Shown here: in pieces, positions 4,342-41,527 of the stretch
Layout: each line of letters starts with the position of its first letter
Numbering within the stretch: the first letter of the stretch is position 1
Assembly (NCBI RefSeq): GCF_018459925.1
Contig: NZ_CP075371.1
Coordinates: forward strand, 2,170,001-2,234,000
Origin: Nocardioides aquaticus
Lineage (GTDB): Bacteria > Actinomycetota > Actinomycetes > Propionibacteriales > Nocardioidaceae
Length of the DNA: 64,000 nucleotides
Direction: 5' to 3'
Notes under the pieces: model-generated
What the model was told of the DNA's origin: nothing
Databases searched by the model: none
What the model saw: the letters and a program-made list of their open reading frames with translations, nothing else
Translations under genes and position numbers: made by a program

Positions 4342-4866
4342 TCAGCAAGGGCGCCAGGTCGTCCCTCCCGGCGCATAACACCGTGGTCCGGTGTAGTTGG
4401 AGTAGTCCGGCGCAGGGTCCGGCGCAGGGTCCGGCGCAGGGTCCGGCGCGGGTGCGGGCGTGCGGGGGGCCAGATCAGGGCGAGGAGCAGGCGTTCGCGG
4501 GAGGACGTGGGCGATGAATCTTCCCGACCATGTCGCCGCACGCCACCGGCGGTCGTCGTCTCCGAAGTCCAGATCTTCGACGTTGCCGTCCTCGCACTCA
4601 ACCTTCACCGGCTGACCGTCGACCTCGATGGTCAGGTCCCGTTCGCTGGAGCACACGATCAGGGTCCGGTCGTCACATTGGTCCACCACCGTCGTGGCCC
4701 GCATTGCGATGGCGGCCTCTCGCTCGATGCAGTCCGTCACGCGGGCAAGCCCCTGGCGCGCGGGCTCGGTCGCGCGCGACGGGCCGGTCTCCGGGTCCGA
4801 CGTCTGCAGCAGAGAGCACCCGCCGAAGATGAGCGCAATGACGAGGAGAGTCGGCGAGATTCTCAT
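4342..4866 (-). CDS. Putative lipoprotein with Pro-Ala-Pro-Asp repeats, 174 aa
   Basis: The N-terminus is a lipoprotein signal (MRISPTLLVIALIFGGC): one positive charge, a hydrophobic core and a lipobox FGGC with the acylated Cys at 17. The mature part has six further Cys residues and ends in four PAPD-type repeats before a short aromatic tail (TGPRCYAPGGTTWRPC). The repeats come from a 12-bp DNA repeat and probably form an extended spacer. It is predicted on the outer face of the membrane. No enzymatic domain is visible. Confidence 0.7.
   Translation of the reverse strand: MRISPTLLVIALIFGGCSLLQTSDPETGPSRATEPARQGLARVTDCIEREAAIAMRATTVVDQCDDRTLIVCSSERDLTIEVDGQPVKVECEDGNVEDLDFGDDDRRWRAATWSGRFIAHVLPRTPAPRPDLAPRTPAPAPDPAPDPAPDPAPDYSNYTGPRCYAPGGTTWRPC
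4407..4442 (-). repeat. 12-bp tandem repeat inside the lipoprotein gene
   Basis: Three exact copies of CCGGCGCAGGGT plus a degenerate fourth copy to 4454. Each encodes DPAP on the minus strand, so copy number can change without shifting the frame. Confidence 0.85.
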
Positions 4867-5129
4867 GTGGAAGGAGAACCGGTCTTCAGCATTGCCGAAG
4901 CGTATCGACTCGCATCAGGTCGCAGGGCTAGCAAGTCGAGACCACGTCGTCAGCACCGACGAAGGCCTCGATAGCGACGAAGTGGAGGAGTGCGAGATGC
5001 CCTTCGTCACCCTCACCTTGCCTCGCTCCCCACCGATGCCCTCGCCGCCGCCGACCTGGCGGGGTCTAGCCGCGGTCGCGGCGGCGCCCAGCTGCAACGA
5101 CCAGGCCGACCTCCCCGGGCGCTACTGCT

Positions 5130-7956: not shown

Positions 7957-8415
7957 GTGGAGGGCGAGTGGGTCAGCCAGGCGGAGGCCGCGCGCCGGCT
8001 GGGCTGCACGGTGGGAGCGCTTCGCCGCCTGGCCGATCGCGGCGTGGTGCAGATGACCAGCCCGCCAACGCGCGGCACCCGTCGCCCTCGCAACGCTCCC
8101 TCGGTCAGGGCTGCCTCGCTCGAGCAGGCCCGGCAGGTGCTGCAGCAGGATCGAGCCGAGGCCGCCGCACGTCGGGCCGAGAGAATCCCAGGCGCACCAC
8201 CTGACGGGCAGGTGTGGTTCAGCGTGGCCGAGACAGCTGTCCTCATCGGTGTCAGCCGCTCCCGGATCGGTCAGTGGGTCCAAGCCGGCCGCCTGCCCGC
8301 GACTCGACGGCGGCGCCTGTGGTGGATCCGCCGACAGGACGCCGAGGTCGCAGCGAACGCCCGCAGGTTCCGCCAAGCTTGGGGTCGCGATCCGGTCGAT
8401 CTCGGAAGGGGCTGA
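7957..8415 (+). CDS. DNA-binding protein with two MerR/excisionase-type HTH domains
   Basis: Two similar helix-turn-helix units are visible: WVSQAEAARRLGCTVGALRR at residues 5-24 and WFSVAETAVLIGVSRSRIGQ at about 87-106. The second is followed by GRLPATRRRRLWWI, the wing strand typical of excisionase/MerR-like domains. GTG 7957 is the start. Proteins of this kind direct excision or regulate integrated elements, which fits the location 850 bp from the putative attR. Which role it plays here cannot be told. Confidence 0.7.
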   Translation: MEGEWVSQAEAARRLGCTVGALRRLADRGVVQMTSPPTRGTRRPRNAPSVRAASLEQARQVLQQDRAEAAARRAERIPGAPPDGQVWFSVAETAVLIGVSRSRIGQWVQAGRLPATRRRRLWWIRRQDAEVAANARRFRQAWGRDPVDLGRG

Positions 8416-8585
8416 CCGGACCCGACGGGGACCAGAGTGCAGCCACCAGCTGACAACGTCGCGCGGCGAGGCGGACGCACCTGGCTGAACCTGGGGCGGG
8501 CCTCAGGCGAGGTCGGCGTCGCGCCAGCCTGTGTCAGCAACAACATGGCGGTCGAAGTCAGACGCCGACCACCGGTTGGCACCAA

Positions 8586-9218
8586 CTGACAGAGGCCCCT
8601 CAGTCCCTCATCCCCACCCCCTCGTGCGACTACGGCCACCCCGCCGACGAGACCGACACCTCCTGCACCACCTGCGACGCCCACCGGATAGCACGCTGCA
8701 AGCCCGGCTACCTGGACAAGCTCGCGGTCGCAGCCGTCGACGACGCCGCACGCCGCATCTACGCCGACACGGTCTCCTCCATCGAGGCCACCGCCCGCCG
8801 CCTCTACTGGGGCTGGGTCAACGGCCACCAGGACGGCCTGTCCCAGCTGACGCTCATCTCGAAGGGCCACCAGCTCCTCACCGCCGTCCAGGGCCACACC
8901 GCCCTCGACTCCGACGTCCAGGACGCCATCTACGCGCTGTTCACGGTCACCCAGGTCGCCAGCATCCACGCCGGCATCAAGGCCCCCGACCCCCAGCTCG
9001 TCCAACCCCGAAGACCCCCTCCCGTACACACGGGAGGGGGTCTTGTTGCGCAGTCTCAAGGCACCGGGCAGGCCGCCGGTAGGCTGCAAGCACTGGTCAT
9101 CGGTGGTCAAGAACGTGAACCGCTCGACGCTTACTCGACGGAAACGAGTGCGGAACCGTGGTCACACCCGGTCACCGATGGCACCCAGGGTTGCTCGAAA
9201 CCGCAGGTCAGGCGGTAG
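8586..9218 (+). CDS. Uncertain coding frame, hypothetical protein without a normal start
   Basis: Codon bias clearly marks this frame as coding to about 9005 (YLDKLAVAAVDDAARRIYAD, then a long helical stretch with GWVNGHQDGLSQ), preceded by a C-x2-C pair (SCTTCD). However, no ATG or GTG is found; CTG 8586 is the best candidate. The frame also runs through the hairpin at 9011-9044 to a stop at 9216. The gene may be truncated or frameshifted at one or both ends. Function unknown. Confidence 0.35.
   Translation: MTEAPQSLIPTPSCDYGHPADETDTSCTTCDAHRIARCKPGYLDKLAVAAVDDAARRIYADTVSSIEATARRLYWGWVNGHQDGLSQLTLISKGHQLLTAVQGHTALDSDVQDAIYALFTVTQVASIHAGIKAPDPQLVQPRRPPPVHTGGGLVAQSQGTGQAAGRLQALVIGGQEREPLDAYSTETSAEPWSHPVTDGTQGCSKPQVRR
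9011..9044. terminator. Perfect 14-bp hairpin near the element boundary
   Basis: AAGACCCCCTCCCG at 9011-9024 pairs with its exact complement at 9031-9044 around a 6-nt loop TACACA; TT follows on the plus side and AA mirrors it, so it can work in both directions. Confidence 0.85.
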
Positions 9219-9263
9219 TCGTGGGCAACGGTGGTCACCCGTTGCGCAATCCGCCCCAGGACA

Positions 9264-9295
9264 AGGGGTCGCAGGTTCAAATCCTGTCAGCCCGA
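9264..9295 (+). other. 3' fragment of tRNA-Pro; putative attR site
   Basis: The sequence contains a complete T arm (GCAGG TTCAAAT CCTGT, 9271-9287) followed by the 3' acceptor strand CAGCCCG and an A discriminator at 9295, with no encoded CCA. The matching 5' half of a tRNA is absent upstream. The AAGGGGTCGC lead-in and CAGCCCGA end fit actinobacterial tRNA-Pro. A 3' tRNA fragment followed by a terminator is the usual att product of a tyrosine integrase acting on a tRNA gene. Confidence 0.7.
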
Positions 9296-9311
9296 CAGAG
9301 TTTCACCAGGT

Positions 9312-9348
9312 CAGAGGCACTTTCCTCCTCGTGAGGGAGGTGCCTCTG
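9312..9348 (+). terminator. Hairpin terminator, probably the original tRNA-Pro terminator
   Basis: CAGAGGCAC at 9312-9320 pairs with GTGCCTCTG at 9340-9348; inner CCTC/GAGG pairs extend the stem. It begins 16 bp after the tRNA 3' end. Confidence 0.75.
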
Positions 9349-9624
9349 GCCGTGAGGGACGGGTCTGACTACATCTTTGACTACATCGTCACTGACAGAG
9401 GTGATCGGTGAAGCGGGCTCCCAGGCCTTCGGTGCACTAACCGGAGGGACCAAGGCAAGCAGGCGAACCAAGCGGGCCGACGGTCCCTGAGGTCGTCTCG
9501 CCGCCCTCGGCCCAAGGTGACGATTCCGACATGTAGAAGGTCCGACCTGATGCGGCCGCGGGCACCGGCACGCGCGGACGGACCTGCACGGGTGGTCGAT
9601 GTGCGATCTGCGTGCACCGGGTGA
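9349..9624. other. Intergenic stretch beside the att site
   Basis: No gene is supported. A short tandem direct repeat, TGACTACATC in two copies 12 bp apart, lies at about 9367-9388. Confidence 0.4.
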
Positions 9625-9774
9625 GTGCGGATCACACGTCGACGTCGTCGTGCCGTAGAGGACACAGCTGCCGCCCGTCGCTACGACGTCACCCTCACCG
9701 CCGAGAACCCTGATGGCTCGACCCGGAACGCGGCTGTCCCTGCCACGCTGCCCATGCAGCGGGGCCCGTTCTAG
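9625..9774 (+). CDS. Very small uncertain ORF, 49 aa
   Basis: GTG 9625 opens a frame that starts Arg-rich (ITRRRRRAVED) and continues with a balanced sequence (YDVTLTAENPDGSTRN) before a stop at 9772. Third-position GC is only moderate and there is no clear ribosome site. It may be the 3' remnant of a longer chromosomal gene. Confidence 0.25.
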   Translation: MRITRRRRRAVEDTAAARRYDVTLTAENPDGSTRNAAVPATLPMQRGPF

Positions 9775-9794
9775 GGTGGCCCGTCGAGGGAACG

Positions 9795-10523
9795 TTGCAC
9801 CAAGCTTCGGAGGGCATCCTGAGTACCAGCAAGTCGGATGTTTCCGCAGGTCGGCGCCGCGATGACGAGGTACGTCGGCCGGCGGCCGTCCTGTGGGACA
9901 TGGACGGCACGCTGATCGATTCGGAGCCGATCTGGATAGCGCAGCAGTTCGCCCTGGTCGAGCACCACGGCGGGACGTGGTCGCACCGACAAGGTCTCGA
10001 GCTCGTCGGTTCCGACATGCACGAGACCGCGGACGCGATGCGCGCCGCCGGTGTCGTCCTGGATGCGACGTCGATCATCGCGACACTCGAAGCCGGAGTC
10101 ATCGAAGCGCTGGCCCAGGATGTGCCCTGGCGACCAGGTGTCCTCGACCTGCTGTGCGACGTCAGGAGCAGTGGGATCCCCGCCGCGATCGTGACGACCT
10201 CGGCGCACGAGATGGCGGACCTCGTGGCACGCAGTGCGCCCGAGGGCACGTTCACCTGCATCGTCGGCTCCCAGGACGTCCGGCGCTCCAAGCCGCACCC
10301 GGACCCCTACCTCGAGGCAGCACGACTCCTCGACGTCAGCATCGCCGACTGTGTCGCCATCGAGGACTCGCCCAACGGCCTGGCCTCGGCCGTGGCCTCG
10401 GGAGCCGTCGCGATCGCGGTGCCGAACGACGCCCACCTCCCGACGCCGGGGAGCTGGCACGTCTGGCCGACCCTCCAGGGCCGGACCGTCGCCGACGTGG
10501 AAGGCCTGATGCGCGGCAGGTGA
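9795..10523 (+). CDS. HAD-superfamily phosphatase (beta-phosphoglucomutase-like)
   Basis: All four HAD motifs are present: WDMDGTLIDSE (nucleophile Asp and general acid Asp), VTTSA, a Lys in RRSKPHPDPY, and EDSPNG. The inserted alpha-helical cap after motif I marks the subclass I beta-PGM/phosphatase group, which acts on small sugar or nucleotide phosphates. The start is uncertain: TTG 9795 has GAGGG 4 nt upstream, while CTG 9819 follows GGAGGG even more closely. It is the first chromosomal gene after the att site. Confidence 0.85.
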   Translation: MHQASEGILSTSKSDVSAGRRRDDEVRRPAAVLWDMDGTLIDSEPIWIAQQFALVEHHGGTWSHRQGLELVGSDMHETADAMRAAGVVLDATSIIATLEAGVIEALAQDVPWRPGVLDLLCDVRSSGIPAAIVTTSAHEMADLVARSAPEGTFTCIVGSQDVRRSKPHPDPYLEAARLLDVSIADCVAIEDSPNGLASAVASGAVAIAVPNDAHLPTPGSWHVWPTLQGRTVADVEGLMRGR

Positions 10524-36290: not shown

Positions 36291-37544
36291 ATGCGCACAC
36301 CCCTGACCCGAGCCCAGCAGCGACCCGGGCTGCGCCGCGGCGGCCTCGCCGCGCTGTCCACCGCGGCGGTGCTGACCCTGGCTGCCTGCTCCGGCGGCAC
36401 GACCCCCGCGAGCGACGAGACCGCCGAAGGAGCGGAGAGCGCCGGTGCGACCGCCGCCGCCGACCCTGCCGGCTCGCGGGTCGCCGTCTCCTACGAGGGC
36501 GGCGTGCTGGTGCTCGACGGCGAGACCATGGAGGTCGTCGCGGACCTGGACTCCGAGGAGTTCACCCGCCTGAACAGCGCCGGTGACGGCCGCCACGTGA
36601 TGGTGACGGTGGCCGACGGCTTCCAGCTGCTGGACACCGGCGCCGGCACCGAGGGCGGCGCCGCCGAGCTCACCGACACGGTCTTCGAGGCCGAGCTGCC
36701 CGGCCACGTGGTGACCCACGCCGACAAGACGGTGCTCTACGCCGACGGCACCAGCGACACGACGATCATGGAGACCGCCGACCTGGCCGCGGGGGAGGTG
36801 CCGGAGACCGAGACCGTCGAGGGCACCGAGGCCCACCACGGCGTCTCGATCGTCCTCGGGGACGGCACCTTCCTGACCACGGTCGGCGACGCCGAGACGC
36901 GGACGGGTGCGGTGGCCAGGGATGCCTCCGGTGAGGTCGTCGCCGAGAACGACGAGTGCCCTGGCATCCACGGCGAGGGCACCGCGGTCGACGAGGCCGT
37001 GGTCTTCGGCTGCGAGGACGGCGCGCTGCTCTTCGTCGACGGCGGGTTCCAGAAGGTCGACGCCCCCGACCGGGGGTACGCCCGGATGGGCAACGCCTAC
37101 GTCAGCGAGACCAGCCCGCTCGTGGTCGGTGACTACAACACCGACCAGGACGCTGAGGGCTACCTGCTCGAGGAGCTGGCCGTCGTCGACACCGCGGCCG
37201 GCGAGCTCGACGTCGTCGCGCTGCCCGAGGGTGCCGAGTACACCTACCGCGGCGTGGCCCGCGGCCCGGGCGACCTCGCCTACGTCATCGCCACCGACGG
37301 CGCGATCCACGTGCTCGACCCGCAGACCCGCGAGCTCACCGACGCCCTCCCGGTCGTCGAGGCGTGGGAGGGGCCGGCTGAGTGGCAGGACCCGCACCCC
37401 TCGATGCGGGTCGAGGGTGATGTGGCCTACGTGACCGACCCCGCCGCGCAGGCCGTCCACGCCGTCGACCTGACCACCGGTGAGGTCACCGCCAGCGCCG
37501 AGCTGGATGTCGACCCCAACGAGATCGCCGTGGCCGCCGGTTGA
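36291..37544 (+). CDS. aztD: Zinc metallochaperone AztD
   Basis: A 417-residue lipoprotein (TLAACSGG lipobox) followed by a beta-propeller. The AztD metal-site features are visible: EAHHGVSIVLGDG, a Cys/His pair in NDECPGIHGEG and CEDGALLFVDGG, and late DPHPSMRVEG. AztD delivers zinc to AztC in the extracytoplasmic space. AGAAGGA precedes ATG 36291 by 9 nt. It closes the operon before a terminator at 37554. Confidence 0.85.
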   Translation: MRTPLTRAQQRPGLRRGGLAALSTAAVLTLAACSGGTTPASDETAEGAESAGATAAADPAGSRVAVSYEGGVLVLDGETMEVVADLDSEEFTRLNSAGDGRHVMVTVADGFQLLDTGAGTEGGAAELTDTVFEAELPGHVVTHADKTVLYADGTSDTTIMETADLAAGEVPETETVEGTEAHHGVSIVLGDGTFLTTVGDAETRTGAVARDASGEVVAENDECPGIHGEGTAVDEAVVFGCEDGALLFVDGGFQKVDAPDRGYARMGNAYVSETSPLVVGDYNTDQDAEGYLLEELAVVDTAAGELDVVALPEGAEYTYRGVARGPGDLAYVIATDGAIHVLDPQTRELTDALPVVEAWEGPAEWQDPHPSMRVEGDVAYVTDPAAQAVHAVDLTTGEVTASAELDVDPNEIAVAAG

Positions 37545-37553
37545 CCCACCGGC

Positions 37554-37587
37554 ACGCCCCCGGGCGACGATCCTCGTCCGGGGGCGT
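37554..37587 (+). terminator. Hairpin terminator of the azt operon
   Basis: A 14-bp stem (ACGCCCCCGGGCGA against TCGTCCGGGGGCGT, one G-T pair) with a 6-nt loop, beginning 10 bp after the aztD stop. Confidence 0.8.
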
Positions 37588-37717
37588 CGTCGTCCGGGGT
37601 GCGCGCTGGCAGCTCGGCCCTTGCCCCTCGCGCCTTCGGGCCCGAGCGCCCAGCACCCACCGGCGGATCGGTGACGGTGTACCTGGGGTGTGGGCGGCCG
37701 GCGACTACTGTTCGCGC

Positions 37718-38650
37718 ATGTCCGTGACCTCGTCGTCCCAGGACGGAGCCGACGCGGGCGTCTCGGTCGGCATGGCCGCAGCGCGCCTGGGCGTCACGAC
37801 CAGCACGTTGCGCAGCTGGGAACGCCGTTACGGCGTGACCCCCTCCCTGAGGACACCCGGAGGTCACCGCCGCTACTCCGACGCCGACATCGAGCGGCTC
37901 GACCAGGTGCAGCGCGACATCCAGAGCGGCCTCCCGCCGGCGGCTGCTGCTGCGGCCGCACTGAGGGCCGACACCGCGCCGGAACCGGCGACGCGGGCGC
38001 GTCGCGGCGCCGGTCCCGGAGGACGGGTCATCGCCGTCCCGGGTGCGAGCGCGAGCGCCCGGGGGCTGGCCAGGGCTGCGGGCCAGCTCGACCTCGACGG
38101 CGTAGAGAACCTCATCCTCGAGGGACTGCGCAGCGGCGGTGTTCTTCGCACCTGGGACGAGATGATGCGCCCGGTCCTGGTGGCTGTCGGCAAGCGCTGG
38201 GCCGAGTCTGGCGAGGCCATCGAGGTGGAGCACGTGCTGTCCGAGGCGGCACTCGGTGCGCTGCGGCGACGTCGCGCCGAGCTCCCGGTCGCCGACGAGC
38301 GGCGCCCGGTCCTGCTGTCCTCGGCGGTGCGCGACCAGCACACCCTGACCCTGCACGTGCTCGCGGTGGGCCTGATGGAGCGACGCGTGCCCGCGCGCAT
38401 CATCGGGGCGCAGGTGCCCGTGGCGGCACTGGCTGCGGCAGTGCGTCGGATCAGGCCCGCGGCGGTGTTCGTCAACTGCGCGGTGAGTGGGGGAGTCGAT
38501 CCCGACGAGCTGGCCGCGCAGCTGCCGAGGACCCGCCCGCCCACGCTCGTGGTGGTCGGCGGGGCGGGGTGGCCGAGCGAGCTGCCGGGTGCGTTGCGTC
38601 GTGCGGCGGGGCTCGAGGAGGCACTGGACCTGCTGGCCGGCTCGGCGTAG
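37718..38650 (+). CDS. carH: CarH/LitR-type B12-dependent light-sensing MerR repressor
   Basis: Residues 15-70 are a MerR HTH (VGMAAARLGVTTSTLRSWER, PGGHRRYSDADIERL). Residues ~105-190 are the helical cap and 195-310 a B12-binding Rossmann domain. The adenosylcobalamin photoreceptor signature W-x9-EH is exact: Trp161, Glu171, His172. The D-x-H cobalt-ligating motif is Asp206-Gln-His208. CarH proteins bind DNA as tetramers in the dark and fall apart when light breaks the Co-C bond. ATG 37718 has TACTGT 6 nt upstream and no ribosome site, so a leaderless mRNA is likely. The next gene is the rhodopsin. Confidence 0.9.
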   Translation: MSVTSSSQDGADAGVSVGMAAARLGVTTSTLRSWERRYGVTPSLRTPGGHRRYSDADIERLDQVQRDIQSGLPPAAAAAAALRADTAPEPATRARRGAGPGGRVIAVPGASASARGLARAAGQLDLDGVENLILEGLRSGGVLRTWDEMMRPVLVAVGKRWAESGEAIEVEHVLSEAALGALRRRRAELPVADERRPVLLSSAVRDQHTLTLHVLAVGLMERRVPARIIGAQVPVAALAAAVRRIRPAAVFVNCAVSGGVDPDELAAQLPRTRPPTLVVVGGAGWPSELPGALRRAAGLEEALDLLAGSA

Positions 38651-38663
38651 GGCCGTTCGGCCC
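38650..38663 (+). terminator. Small GTTC-loop hairpin at the end of carH
   Basis: GGGCC-GTTC-GGCCC directly follows the carH stop. The motif GGCCGTTCGG recurs at 38673-38682 as a direct repeat. Confidence 0.5.
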
Positions 38664-38685
38664 GGGATCTGAGGCCGTTCGGCAA

Positions 38686-38725
38686 ACTTGTGCAACTTGT
38701 GCAAGTCCTGGGTGGGGCGTATGTT
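38686..38725 (+). promoter_or_regulatory. Rhodopsin promoter overlapped by tandem 9-bp repeats (putative CarH operator)
   Basis: ACTTGTGCA occurs twice back to back (38686-38694 and 38695-38703). The second copy contains the -35-like TTGTGC (38697-38702); after exactly 17 bp comes the -10-like TATGTT (38720-38725). Direct-repeat operators that cover the -35 are how Thermus CarH blocks RNA polymerase. The expected start of transcription is near 38732, 87 bp before the rhodopsin ATG. Confidence 0.75.
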
Positions 38726-38818
38726 CACCTTTGCCTCCCATTCGTGGAGACCGCCCCGAATCAGGGGCAGATGCCGACCGCTCGGCTGCTGAAGCCAGCG
38801 CTCATCAGAAGGACCCTC

Positions 38819-39658
38819 ATGATGTTGTCTTATGCAACTTCGCAATCGGGTGCGATTTCGTCATTGTCGTCAGGCCAGTACTCCACGGTCTACAACGTGC
38901 TCTCGCTCGCCATCGCCAGCCTGCTGTTCACGGCGCTCTACCTGCTCCTGTCGCAGCGCCAGGTGGCTCCGCGCTATCGCAACGCGATCGTCGTGTCAGC
39001 GATCGTGTGCGGGATCGCGGCCTACCACTACTTCCGGATCTTCGCGAACTTCCAGGAGAGCTATCCGGCCGGCGCGACCATCGACGCGGCGCACGTGCTG
39101 TCCAACGTCGAGTTCAACGAGGGCTACCGCTACGTCGACTGGTTCCTCACGGTTCCGCTGCTGCTGGTCGAGACGGTCGCGGTGCTCGCCCTCAGTCGTG
39201 CCGCGTCACAGCGCCTCCTGGTCAGGCTGGTGCCTGCCGCCGCCCTGATGATCGTGCTCGGCTACCCGGGCGAGCTCACCTTGGAGACCGGCCCCCGCGT
39301 CATCTGGGGCGTCTTGTCGACCCTGCCGTTCCTCTACCTGCTCTACGTGCTGTTCGTCGGGCTCACCAAGGCCCTGGAAGGCAAGAGCCCCCAGGTACGC
39401 GCCCAGATCTCCAACCTGCGCTGGATCCTGCTGGCGTCGTGGGGTGTCTACCCGATCGCCTACGCGTTCCCGTTGATCGGTGGCGACTTCTTCAGCGGCG
39501 CCGGTGGCTTCGTGCTCCGTCAGACCGGTTACTCGATCGCCGACATCGTCGCCAAGGCCCTCTTCGGCATCCTCATCTACCGCCTGGCACGCACCCAGAG
39601 CCGCGAGGAGGACCCGCAGGTCTACGGTGACGGGCACGACCTGCAGCGGGTGGCGTGA
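38819..39658 (+). CDS. Proton-pumping microbial rhodopsin, xanthorhodopsin-like
   Basis: Seven helices in 279 residues. The retinal Lys is 246 in IADIVAKALFG, with counter-ion Asp242. Helix C carries the outward proton-pump triad: Asp107 (acceptor), Thr111 and Glu118 (donor) in RYVDWFLTVPLLLVE, i.e. DTE as in proteorhodopsin. His70 matches the proteorhodopsin His75. Leu at the position of Leu105 of green proteorhodopsin predicts green absorption. Gly164 replaces bacteriorhodopsin Trp138 as in xanthorhodopsin Gly156, leaving room for a carotenoid antenna. AGAAGGA is 5 nt before ATG 38819. Confidence 0.95.
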   Translation: MMLSYATSQSGAISSLSSGQYSTVYNVLSLAIASLLFTALYLLLSQRQVAPRYRNAIVVSAIVCGIAAYHYFRIFANFQESYPAGATIDAAHVLSNVEFNEGYRYVDWFLTVPLLLVETVAVLALSRAASQRLLVRLVPAAALMIVLGYPGELTLETGPRVIWGVLSTLPFLYLLYVLFVGLTKALEGKSPQVRAQISNLRWILLASWGVYPIAYAFPLIGGDFFSGAGGFVLRQTGYSIADIVAKALFGILIYRLARTQSREEDPQVYGDGHDLQRVA

Positions 39659-39665
39659 TCACCAC

Positions 39666-40766
39666 ATGACAGCTGCACGGGCGGGTCGGGTACGCGTCGC
39701 GTCGGGTCGAGAGGGGCTCACCGGCCTGCCGGACCACGGGGTCGCCGTCCCGGTCCCGCCCGTGCTCCCCTCCTGCTCCCTCCCGGCCGGTGCGGCGTCG
39801 TCCTTCTCGCGGGCCGCCGTGGCTGTGGCCGTCGTCGGGTCGTGGCTCGTCCCGCCGTGGGTCGTCCTGATCGCCGGGCTGGTGGCCGGTCTCCCGCACG
39901 GCGCGGTGGACCACCTCGTCCCGCGCTGGTGGCTGGGTGCACGAGCGCCGTGGATGCTTCTCGTGGTGAGCGTCTACGCAGCGACGGCCGCCGCCTCCTA
40001 CCTCGCGTTCCGCACCTGGCCGGTGGCCGCGGTGGCGCTGTTCCTCGCGGTGTCGGCGTGGCACTTCGCGTCCGGCGAGACAGGGTTCGCCGACCTCCGG
40101 GCCGGCCGCGCGCTCGCCGGGCGGCGGTTGCGGGCCGTGGGCCACGTCGTGGCGGTCCTGGCCCTCCCGGTGCTGCTGCACCCGGACGGTGTGCTGCCGC
40201 TCCTCCGGGTGGTGGTCGACGCGCCGGTCGAGCTGCCTCCCGGGTCCGGGACCGCCGTGGCGGTCGCCGCTGTGGTCGGCCTCCTCGTGGTGGCGGGCGT
40301 GCTCGCGACCGACCTGTCGAGGGGTCGCCGGGCCGAGGCTGTGGACCTGGGCCTGCTCGTCCTGCTCGCCGTGCTCGTGCACCCCCTGGCCGCGTTCGGC
40401 GTCTACTTCGGGGCGTGGCACTCCGTACGGCACCTCGCGCGGACCCTGGTGGACGACCCGGGCAACGCGAGGCTCCTTGCCGACGGACGCCTCGGTGCGG
40501 CGCTGCGCCGCTTCGCCGTCTCGGCGGCGCTGCCGACGCTCGCCTCGCTGCTCCTCGTCGGCGCCCTCGTCGTCGCCGCGGACGGCTGGCGGGGCTTCGC
40601 CTCCGAGTACCTGGCCCTCCTGGCCGGCCTCACCGTGCCGCACCTGGTCACGGTCGCGTGGGCCGACCGCCGGCGCGCCGCTGCCAGTTCCGCGGTCACC
40701 GTGCAGCAGCCACCGGTTCGTGCTGGCGTCCGGGTCGCGGCGCGAGGTCCGCGACCGCCGTGGTGA
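39666..40766 (+). CDS. blh: Brp/Blh-family beta-carotene 15,15'-dioxygenase
   Basis: This membrane enzyme cleaves beta-carotene to two retinal molecules, the chromophore of the rhodopsin 7 bp upstream. The conserved His/Asp iron-site motifs are visible: GLPHGAVDHLVP, SAWHFASGETGFAD, YFGAWHSVRHLAR and TVPHLVTVAW. About nine hydrophobic segments. The last ~25 residues (ARGPRPPW end) are basic and overlap the convergent flavodoxin gene by 71 bp. Carotenoid biosynthesis genes are not in the window and must lie elsewhere. Confidence 0.92.
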   Translation: MTAARAGRVRVASGREGLTGLPDHGVAVPVPPVLPSCSLPAGAASSFSRAAVAVAVVGSWLVPPWVVLIAGLVAGLPHGAVDHLVPRWWLGARAPWMLLVVSVYAATAAASYLAFRTWPVAAVALFLAVSAWHFASGETGFADLRAGRALAGRRLRAVGHVVAVLALPVLLHPDGVLPLLRVVVDAPVELPPGSGTAVAVAAVVGLLVVAGVLATDLSRGRRAEAVDLGLLVLLAVLVHPLAAFGVYFGAWHSVRHLARTLVDDPGNARLLADGRLGAALRRFAVSAALPTLASLLLVGALVVAADGWRGFASEYLALLAGLTVPHLVTVAWADRRRAAASSAVTVQQPPVRAGVRVAARGPRPPW

Positions 40767-41277
40767 CCCAGATCTCCGCGCGGGCCAGCTCGCCCCCGAG
40801 CAGTGGGCCCACGTTGTCGGCCACCATGAACGACCCCGGACGCCGGTGGACCGCGAAGCCACGGTGGCGCGCCAGCACGCAGGCGCGGGGGCCGGCGGCC
40901 CCTCGCAGCCGGCGGGCCCGCTGCACCCGGGTGTCGAAGGCCAGCAGCGGGACCCGACGCCCGTGCGCGGGGGTCACCTCGGAAAGCCACTCGCGCAGCC
41001 CGGTGCGGACCGCGGCCGCCGACGCCCCGTGCCGGGCGGCGTCGGCGCGGGCCGACGGCCGGGTCAGCGAGAACGCGTGCGTCGGAGCCCCGACGACCAC
41101 GAGGTCGGTGTCGAGCCGGCCCGTGGGCATGGTCGGGTCGCCGACCTCGTGGAGCGTGACGCCGTAGCTGACCCGCTCGAGGGCCTGGGCGACCACGTGC
41201 GCCACGGCTTCGGTGTTGCCGCGCATCGACTCGACCACGACGAGGGCCAGCGGCCGGCCGTCGGGTGCGTAGGACAT
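40696..41277 (-). CDS. Flavodoxin-like protein
   Basis: The FMN phosphate loop is present in VVVESMRGNTEAVAHVV, and DLVVVGAPTHAFSLTRPS matches the second flavin loop. A middle acidic/His region (TPAHGRRVPLLAFDTRV) follows. 193 residues is a usual length. ATG 41277 follows AGGAGAG. A perfect GGGACC-TC-GGTCCC box lies 79 bp upstream, shared with the divergent Acg-like gene. It probably serves electron transfer under low oxygen. Confidence 0.8.
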   Translation of the reverse strand: MSYAPDGRPLALVVVESMRGNTEAVAHVVAQALERVSYGVTLHEVGDPTMPTGRLDTDLVVVGAPTHAFSLTRPSARADAARHGASAAAVRTGLREWLSEVTPAHGRRVPLLAFDTRVQRARRLRGAAGPRACVLARHRGFAVHRRPGSFMVADNVGPLLGGELARAEIWVTTAVADLAPRPGRQHEPVAAAR

Positions 41278-41355
41278 GACTCTCTCCTGGGGTCGTGTCG
41301 TCCCAGGCTGCTCCTCCGGTCGGTCCGTCCCCAGGGTTGACGGTCCCCGGACATG

Positions 41356-41369
41356 GGGACCTCGGTCCC
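41356..41369. promoter_or_regulatory. DevR/DosR-type box (perfect dyad)
   Basis: GGGACCTCGGTCCC, a perfect 6-2-6 palindrome with the same geometry as the mycobacterial DosR core GGGACT-NN-AGTCCC. It lies between the divergent flavodoxin and Acg-like genes. Confidence 0.65.
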
Positions 41370-41527
41370 GGTGGCGGCGCCCGGCCCCGGTGCCGACCCG
41401 GTGAAGGGGTCCAACGTCCCCGGGGCCGGGGACCGGCGCGCCTTGGTCGGACGACCCACCGCGGCCGATCGTGGGGGCAACGGGGCTGGGGCGGGTGGAC
41501 GGACGGGTGGACGGGACGGGGCACGAG

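Follow-up and report, generated by a model that had tools for sequence, protein, structure and literature searches.

When does an actinobacterium build a light-driven proton pump, and what tells it to do so? The question is raised by a locus of three co-directional genes in the window, i.e. the whole 64-kb stretch of DNA analysed here, which belongs to a 4.58-Mb single-contig genome. A regulator gene is followed by a rhodopsin gene and by blh, which begins 7 bp past the rhodopsin end (Table 1), and AAACTTGTGCAACTTGTGCAAG lies in the 168-bp gap that separates the regulator and rhodopsin genes. An earlier note on this DNA had proposed that tandem repeats in this gap form a direct light switch operated by the upstream regulator. 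Our analysis suggests that this soil-type actinobacterium probably switches its proton pump via a B12-binding regulator of a light-sensing type and the promoter repeat (hereafter the box). Sequence comparison gives good support to the predicted wiring from regulator through box to rhodopsin-blh.

Table 1 Features of the regulator–rhodopsin–blh locus (positions within the window).
Feature	Position	Strand	Basis
MerR-type regulator gene with C-terminal B12-binding module, CarH/LitR-like, 310 aa	37718–38650	+	Pfam, PDB relatives, AlphaFold/Foldseek
Codons of W161-x9-E171-H172 (adenosyl-capping motif in CarH)	38198–38233	+	81-row alignment including TtCarH fragment
Candidate operator box, two tandem 9-bp repeats	38684–38706		Repeat search; conservation in 15/15 regulator-linked rhodopsin loci
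CarH half-site AnnTnnACA, AGTTGCACA, 9 bp from ACTTGCACA	38689–38697	−	Pattern match
-35-like hexamer TTGTGC, within second repeat	38697–38702	+	Read from sequence
CarH half-site AnnTnnACA, ACTTGCACA	38698–38706	−	Pattern match; consensus from available parts of PMC8156234 and PMC9304148
-10-like hexamer TATGTT, exactly 17 bp past TTGTGC	38720–38725	+	Read from sequence
Third AnnTnnACA half-site, overlapping -10	38722–38730	−	Background 3/105 overlapping stretches
Shine-Dalgarno-like AGAAGGA ahead of rhodopsin ATG	38807–38813	+	Read from sequence
Xanthorhodopsin-like (DTE-type) rhodopsin, 279 aa	38819–39658	+	Pfam Bac_rhodopsin
blh, beta-carotene 15,15'-dioxygenase (retinal synthesis)	39666–40766	+	Pfam BCD; NCBIfam blh_monoox over cut-off

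The rhodopsin operon and the regulator protein

The rhodopsin has a Bac_rhodopsin domain with the DTE residues in helix C (DWFLTVPLLLVE), which we take to be the mark of xanthorhodopsin-like proton pumps. Its relatives in the PDB are 9hfk, psXR (9wfa), Gll0198 (6nwd), Kin4B8 (7ytb) and xanthorhodopsin (3ddl). The genome also contains two adenosyltransferase-family genes, counted in favour of a B12-type reading, and two crtB-type (SQS_PSY) genes distant from the rhodopsin locus. Rfam gave zero matches in the window at gathering score, and a cobalamin riboswitch was therefore not called there.

The earlier note had described the gene just upstream as encoding a MerR/B12 protein with an exact W-x9-EH photoreceptor motif, and both the domains and the motif (W161-x9-E171-H172) are present. 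Pfam assigned MerR_1 (PF13411) with 53.7 bits (cut-off 21.6) and B12-binding_2 over its cut-off, while B12-binding scored 28.3 bits, under the cut-off of 32.1. The PDB relatives by sequence are 3whp and 5c8d, and the best Foldseek matches to the AlphaFold model (pLDDT 90.7) are the CarH entries 5c8e (E 3e-15) and 5c8d, so that the regulator is predicted to have the CarH fold. Superposition of 5c8e on the model over the whole chain gave a TM of 0.54 and an rmsd of 15, which indicates that the domain orientation differs between the two; the B12 module alone reached a TM of ~0.8 of the target.

W161, E171, H172 and H208 are invariant among 40 homologues that we picked, and the Trp, Glu, His and lower-ligand His are conserved in all 15 regulators encoded directly upstream of a rhodopsin (the linked loci defined below). 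In six of the 28 other loci of the class (L121, L122, L123, L127, L130, and L131), Phe replaces the Trp and EH is conserved. The residue following the Trp is Ala162 in the window, and His occupies this position in none of the 80 rows compared; at least three of these rows are repeats (P0001, P0014, and P0034) and two are partial proteins (L020 and L032). In Thermus CarH, the His at this position becomes a ligand of the cobalt on illumination. According to the available part of PMC9304148, this His, which gives the bis-His light state, occurs in many but not all CarH proteins. The H132A variant of Thermus CarH is reported to remain mostly tetrameric in light, and an earlier report of disassembly is cited in the same source (PMC10442372, as far as its text was available).

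The classic B12 motif, given in the accessible text of PMC9304148 as D/ExHx2G/P-x41-SxT/V-x22-27-GG, is incomplete in the window regulator: D206xH208 and G281G282 are present, but the remaining positions are T211, N253, and A255. At 38474–38482 the window encodes NxA where the SxV of the motif stands in most near homologues. A loosened form of the motif fits 1 of the 15 linked regulators, 2 of 28 other class loci and 8 of 37 near homologues. Since the His and GG are conserved and the classic motif is incomplete, we call the protein CarH-like and not a CarH. Its score against the NCBIfam equivalog for CarH (NF052513) was 80.8 bits, below the curated cut-off of 400.

The regulator resembles CarH of Thermus thermophilus and Bacillus megaterium (class I LitR) in its MerR domain with an RSWERRY recognition helix, its four-helix plus Rossmann B12 module, W-x9-EH and the D/ExH lower ligand, and differs from it in the residue after the Trp and in the incomplete B12 motif. 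It is also similar to LitR of Streptomyces coelicolor, a B12 MerR protein by which an actinobacterium regulates light-induced genes; LitR works via the sigma factor LitS on the carotenoid gene crtE, whereas the box here lies on the rhodopsin promoter. To our knowledge, photocobilins (Saccharothrix, Acidimicrobiaceae) are not MerR DNA-binding proteins, unlike the window regulator.

The tandem repeat and the promoter

The sequence AAACTTGTGCAACTTGTGCAAG occupies 38684–38705, with the perfect 9-bp copies at 38686–38703, and TRF reported 38685–38704 with a period of 9, 2.2 copies and 100% match. The second copy lengthens into a perfect dyad, ACTTG-TG-CAAGT (38695–38706). Sequence and TRF thus confirm the description in the earlier note of adjoining repeats with TTGTGC in the second, a 17-bp spacer and TATGTT, and its claim that the repeat covers the rhodopsin -35 also holds, the second copy being the -35. 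The two hexamers make a plausible rhodopsin promoter, from which the mRNA leader would be ~90 nt. A generic sigma-70 (threshold of 9/12 consensus bases) and terminator scan of 37500–41500 gave no calls, the box promoter included.

The 18-mer was found nowhere else in the window at up to three mismatches, nor in 100 shuffles; genome-wide, its sole exact match is the rhodopsin promoter, with two further places at three mismatches. The window contains five distinct perfect adjacent 9-bp duplications (8 start positions), so it is the sequence and location of the box that are remarkable and not the duplication itself. The pattern ACTTGNNCAASTTG matches the genome exactly at the rhodopsin box only, and its 15 additional one-mismatch places are fewer than the 57 of a reversed control pattern.

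Thermus and Bacillus CarH share the half-site AnnTnnACA (available parts of PMC8156234 and PMC9304148). The expectation of CarH-type direct repeats over the -35 was borne out in part: like a CarH operator, the box covers the -35 and contains half-sites of this type, but they lie on the minus strand and 9 bp apart, in contrast to the tandem 11-bp repeats nAnnTnnACAn of CarH operators. The third half-site, at the -10, may be due to chance.

Across the linked loci, the geometry of the window recurs in variants. The second half-site itself coincides with the -35 in the window and in L020, where a 17-bp spacer follows. Four Geodermatophilaceae loci (L026, L029, L033, and L036) have TCGACC, TGGACC or TGGACT as the second half, near the TTGACC of whiB promoters and 17–18 bp from TAGACC or TAAACC. 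A TA hexamer, which is weak evidence of a -10, lies 36–39 bp into the box register (17–20 bp past the -35 position) in 10 of the 15 linked loci; against this pattern, it is absent from the searched stretch in four and 8 bp nearer in one. Eight of the 15 combine a 17–18 bp spacer with a box that covers the -35; L023 and L024 have spacers of 19–20 bp. Classic MerR activators have a 19–20 bp spacer. Blocking therefore fits the 17–18 bp spacer and the box over the -35 better than classic MerR activation does, and the geometry of the latter is disfavoured.

Distribution of the box among rhodopsin and whiB loci

Rhodopsin relatives were collected from species genomes (417 confirmed stretches), and the best 80 loci of the 417 were used. 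A regulator homologue lies directly upstream of the rhodopsin in 13 of these 80; with the window and L110 they make up the 15 linked loci, which belong to Nocardioidaceae, Geodermatophilaceae, Kineosporiaceae, Intrasporangiaceae and Dermatophilaceae by NCBI family, that of L110 possibly coinciding with one of the five. All 13 gaps contain a common box, with AACTTGTGCAACTTG, AACTTGTGCAAGTTG, AACCTGTGCAACTGG, AACTTGTTCAAGTTG and AACTTGCACAACTTG among its variants. At least 10 of 12 box positions are matched in 13/13 linked and 13/67 unlinked loci of the best 80 (p 3e-8), a comparison that is circular in that the 12 positions were defined on the linked set; the window and L110 boxes match at 12/12. 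The earlier note had staked its proposal on the repeat persisting in relatives that keep the gene order, and the box does so in 15/15 linked loci. Since the linked loci are related to one another, several of them as near-copies, the p values overstate independence. Seven rhodopsin loci of the same family with no regulator in their 1.5-kb flanks have box scores of 9 or 10.

Several loci show arrangements of their own. L006 (G171), one of these seven and from another genus of the family, has a 74% identical rhodopsin with neither a regulator in the 1.5-kb flanks nor a box. In the Geodermatophilaceae loci L026, L033 and L036 (~4866–4885), the box lies directly past the regulator stop codon (TGAAACCTGTGCAACT). 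The rhodopsin promoters of L034 (Quadrisphaera) and L037 (Kineococcus) have no box and carry a CRP-like palindrome, GGTGACNNNGATCACC, hinting at other control of rhodopsin. L026 (Modestobacter; 8306–10283) encodes another rhodopsin, a distant one accompanied by a blh of its own, ~2.4 kb downstream of the first. L021 (5850–10825) retains regulator, box and rhodopsin, and a blh homologue was not found in that stretch.

Because the box had been defined on the linked set, tests free of that circularity were added. Among 964 spaced triplet pairs compared with no prior motif, the best was AAC-N5-CAA, present in 13/15 linked and 3/67 unlinked loci (p 1e-10; best among 60 random label sets, 1.5e-6). 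Further dyads likewise separated the two sets, perhaps because the 250 bp compared extend into the regulator gene. The CarH half-site falls within 12 of the 15 linked boxes compared with 3 of 105 overlapping stretches taken immediately downstream, and in 10 of those 12 it is on the minus strand in a single common register; the three boxes without it count against the CarH likeness. When gaps from different families were paired, the best 14-bp match aligned the two boxes in 53 of 89 cases (expected ~0.3) and lay elsewhere in the remaining 36.

A further test came from regulators without a rhodopsin. Homologues occur in 143 of 345 genomes of the class at E 1e-30. Among L103–L131, the regulator is divergent from a WhiB-type gene in 27 of 29, the exceptions being L118, where no whiB was found, and L110, where the neighbour is the rhodopsin; L118 is included in the 28 comparison rows referred to as whiB-linked, and one WhiB-type protein was verified with Pfam. 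The same divergent arrangement was seen in L162, L163, L166, L168 and L170–L174. Most whiB/regulator pairs have a conserved box, e.g. ACTTGACCAACTTnTGAAGC and ACTTGACCAACTT, over the apparent whiB -35, so these pairs resemble the window in both a related regulator and a similar box; they differ in that their target is a WhiB-type factor and in that the rhodopsin-linked regulators lie on a separate branch side. B12/light control of a WhiB factor in such pairs is possible.

A motif sampler run on 36 whiB upstream regions returned TTGACCAACTTTTGAAGC, which corresponds to the apparent whiB -35 and part of the spacer. The matrix was built from 35 sites with no rhodopsin promoter in training; the 36th region was omitted for having no site above threshold or a site too near the edge. 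It scored linked rhodopsin promoters above unlinked ones (median 13.4 vs 5.1, p 4e-7), and its match was the box in 15/15 linked loci. Against our reading, the unlinked L072 ranked third of 82, and L093, L048, L073 and L096 were also high. In the 64-kb window, the two best matches are the repeat (20.5 and 16.8 bits), followed by one of 12.2 bits. The 15-kb stretches around the two crtB-type genes hold no exact box; their best matches (14.6 and 14.2 bits) lie between the box score and the next match in the window, and control of carotenoid genes through them is possible. Upstream of the regulator gene itself the box is absent (best matrix score -3.8), and hence there is no sign of autoregulation through it.

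Within the genus, a regulator was found at E 1e-25 in 3 of 215 genomes: the window genome, G252 (L021, Nocardioides rubriscoriae DSM 23986, rhodopsin at 339521–340345) and G324 (L020). L021 and L020 have the two rhodopsins nearest to that of the window, so that every regulator-bearing genome of the genus has a rhodopsin at least 79% identical to the window's, or the window's own. We chose 32 of the 67 unlinked rhodopsin genomes, 11 that have a box-like site and 21 that lack one, L068 and L073 (weak sites) not being among them; seven of the 11 and two of the 21 encode a regulator at another location in the genome (p 0.003). In a tree computed without L172, L173 and L175, a branch with a support of 94, which we do not regard as decisive, separates the rhodopsin-linked regulators from 36 others. 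The co-occurrence of regulator and box together with this branch leads us to favour a scenario in which a rhodopsin operon on a single occasion acquired a whiB-type regulator together with its operator and would then have spread over several families. In three actinobacterial MAGs (L046:1891, L047:2, and L048:4857, the last labelled Nanopelagicales), GCTTGTTCAACTTG lies 143–146 bp upstream of an actinorhodopsin. The regulator is elsewhere in these genomes, beside whiB, and might control the actinorhodopsin in trans.

Proposed mechanism, alternatives and implications

The reading that we consider reasonably likely is that the box is the operator of the upstream MerR/B12 regulator, and that rhodopsin-blh is repressed in the dark by the adenosylcobalamin-bound form and relieved by light. 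In the dark, this form would occupy the pair of half-sites, spaced by 9 bp, that covers the -35, and would obstruct RNA polymerase at the rhodopsin-blh promoter. Light would break the Co–C bond and release the regulator from DNA, and the proton-pump rhodopsin and the retinal-making blh would then be transcribed. Blocking of the -35 is the simplest reading, and it agrees with CarH, a carotenoid-gene repressor that differs from the present case in its target. Binding to the box, B12 as chromophore, light as signal and repression as sign are what we infer. The 9-bp period, the missing light-ligand His, the incomplete B12 motif and the sub-cut-off B12-binding score all count against this reading.

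The sign of control deserves caution. According to the available part of PMC8591293, rhodopsin transcripts increase in the dark in two freshwater actinobacteria, including that of actinorhodopsin in Rhodoluna, and Streptomyces LitR, from the same phylum, is described as acting both ways, as a repressor in the dark and as an activator in the light, where it promotes litS transcription (PMC12705666, in the text available). The same regulator and operator could thus work with the other sign or in two ways, activating in one light state or combining dark repression with light activation, as the long spacers of L023 and L024 would also suit. The 17–18 bp spacers of 8/15 linked loci, with the box on the -35 and not between -35 and -10, speak against it, and we regard it as rather unlikely. 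An improbable alternative is that the regulator reports the adenosylcobalamin level, or redox or oxygen via cobalamin, and so ties rhodopsin to vitamin status instead of light; the absence of the light-state ligand-switch His in 80/80 rows and the degenerate B12 motif would suit it. Adenosylcobalamin is photolabile anyway, and this counts against it, as does a target that is a light-using protein. W-x9-EH, crucial for CarH photoreceptor activity in the available passages of PMC9304148, is present in 15/15 linked regulators, whereas the whiB-type gene beside 27 of 29 relatives (L103–L131) lends this alternative some weight, WhiB proteins being possible O2/NO sensors (PMC6282962, from the part available).

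That another regulator binds the box, or that the box is merely a conserved -35 or upstream promoter element, appears very improbable. Sites matching 10–12 of 12 positions in L028, L038, L077 and L096 (9 in L041), in genomes with no regulator homologue at E 1e-25, favour it, at least L028, L038 and L041 being MAGs, and so does the nearly palindromic 14-bp core, unlike CarH repeats. Yet the box recurs in whiB/regulator promoters without rhodopsin, the regulator accompanies the site in unlinked genomes (7/11 vs 2/21), and conservation covers both half-sites, which is more than a -35. A functionless chance repeat can draw on the five perfect duplications in the window, but its probability is negligible given the box in 15/15 linked loci and the prior-free dyad, whiB-matrix, cross-family and half-site tests. 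It was rejected, as conservation goes beyond relatedness in the whiB matrix, the cross-family pairs and the CarH half-site.

Among the matches listed from the open-access literature, as far as their text was available, none linked a rhodopsin promoter with a regulator of the CarH/LitR type. "MerR" occurs in PMC8591293 and PMC9529153 within author names only; the accessible text of PMC8582858 has CarH/LitR only in the references and one figure legend, and that of PMC11217422 describes the opposite direction, in which an ArsR-like regulator is the target of a rhodopsin. The authors of PMC8591293 state, in the part available, that the light sensor behind rhodopsin regulation in their two freshwater actinobacteria is unidentified.

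More tentatively, and with doubt prevailing over the combined picture, the loci may represent an actinobacterial lineage of B12 photoreceptors that has a compact, 9-bp-spaced operator and a light reaction independent of the bis-His state, and that would govern a light regulon with a WhiB-type transcription factor as its ancestral target. One branch of the lineage would have been captured beside a rhodopsin and would travel as a regulator–operator–rhodopsin cassette, with the regulator copy elsewhere in the genome perhaps acting on the rhodopsin promoter in trans in some genomes (MAGs labelled Frankineae, Frankiaceae, and Nanopelagicales). The lack of a bis-His residue in every regulator compared raises the question of whether B12 photoreceptors in general require this ligand switch. 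If the preferred reading of light-relieved repression is true, B12 photolysis would decide when the cell builds its retinal proton pump: one photoreceptor chemistry would govern another, so that the pump is built when light can drive it. The box would offer a direct handle on rhodopsin regulation in actinobacteria.
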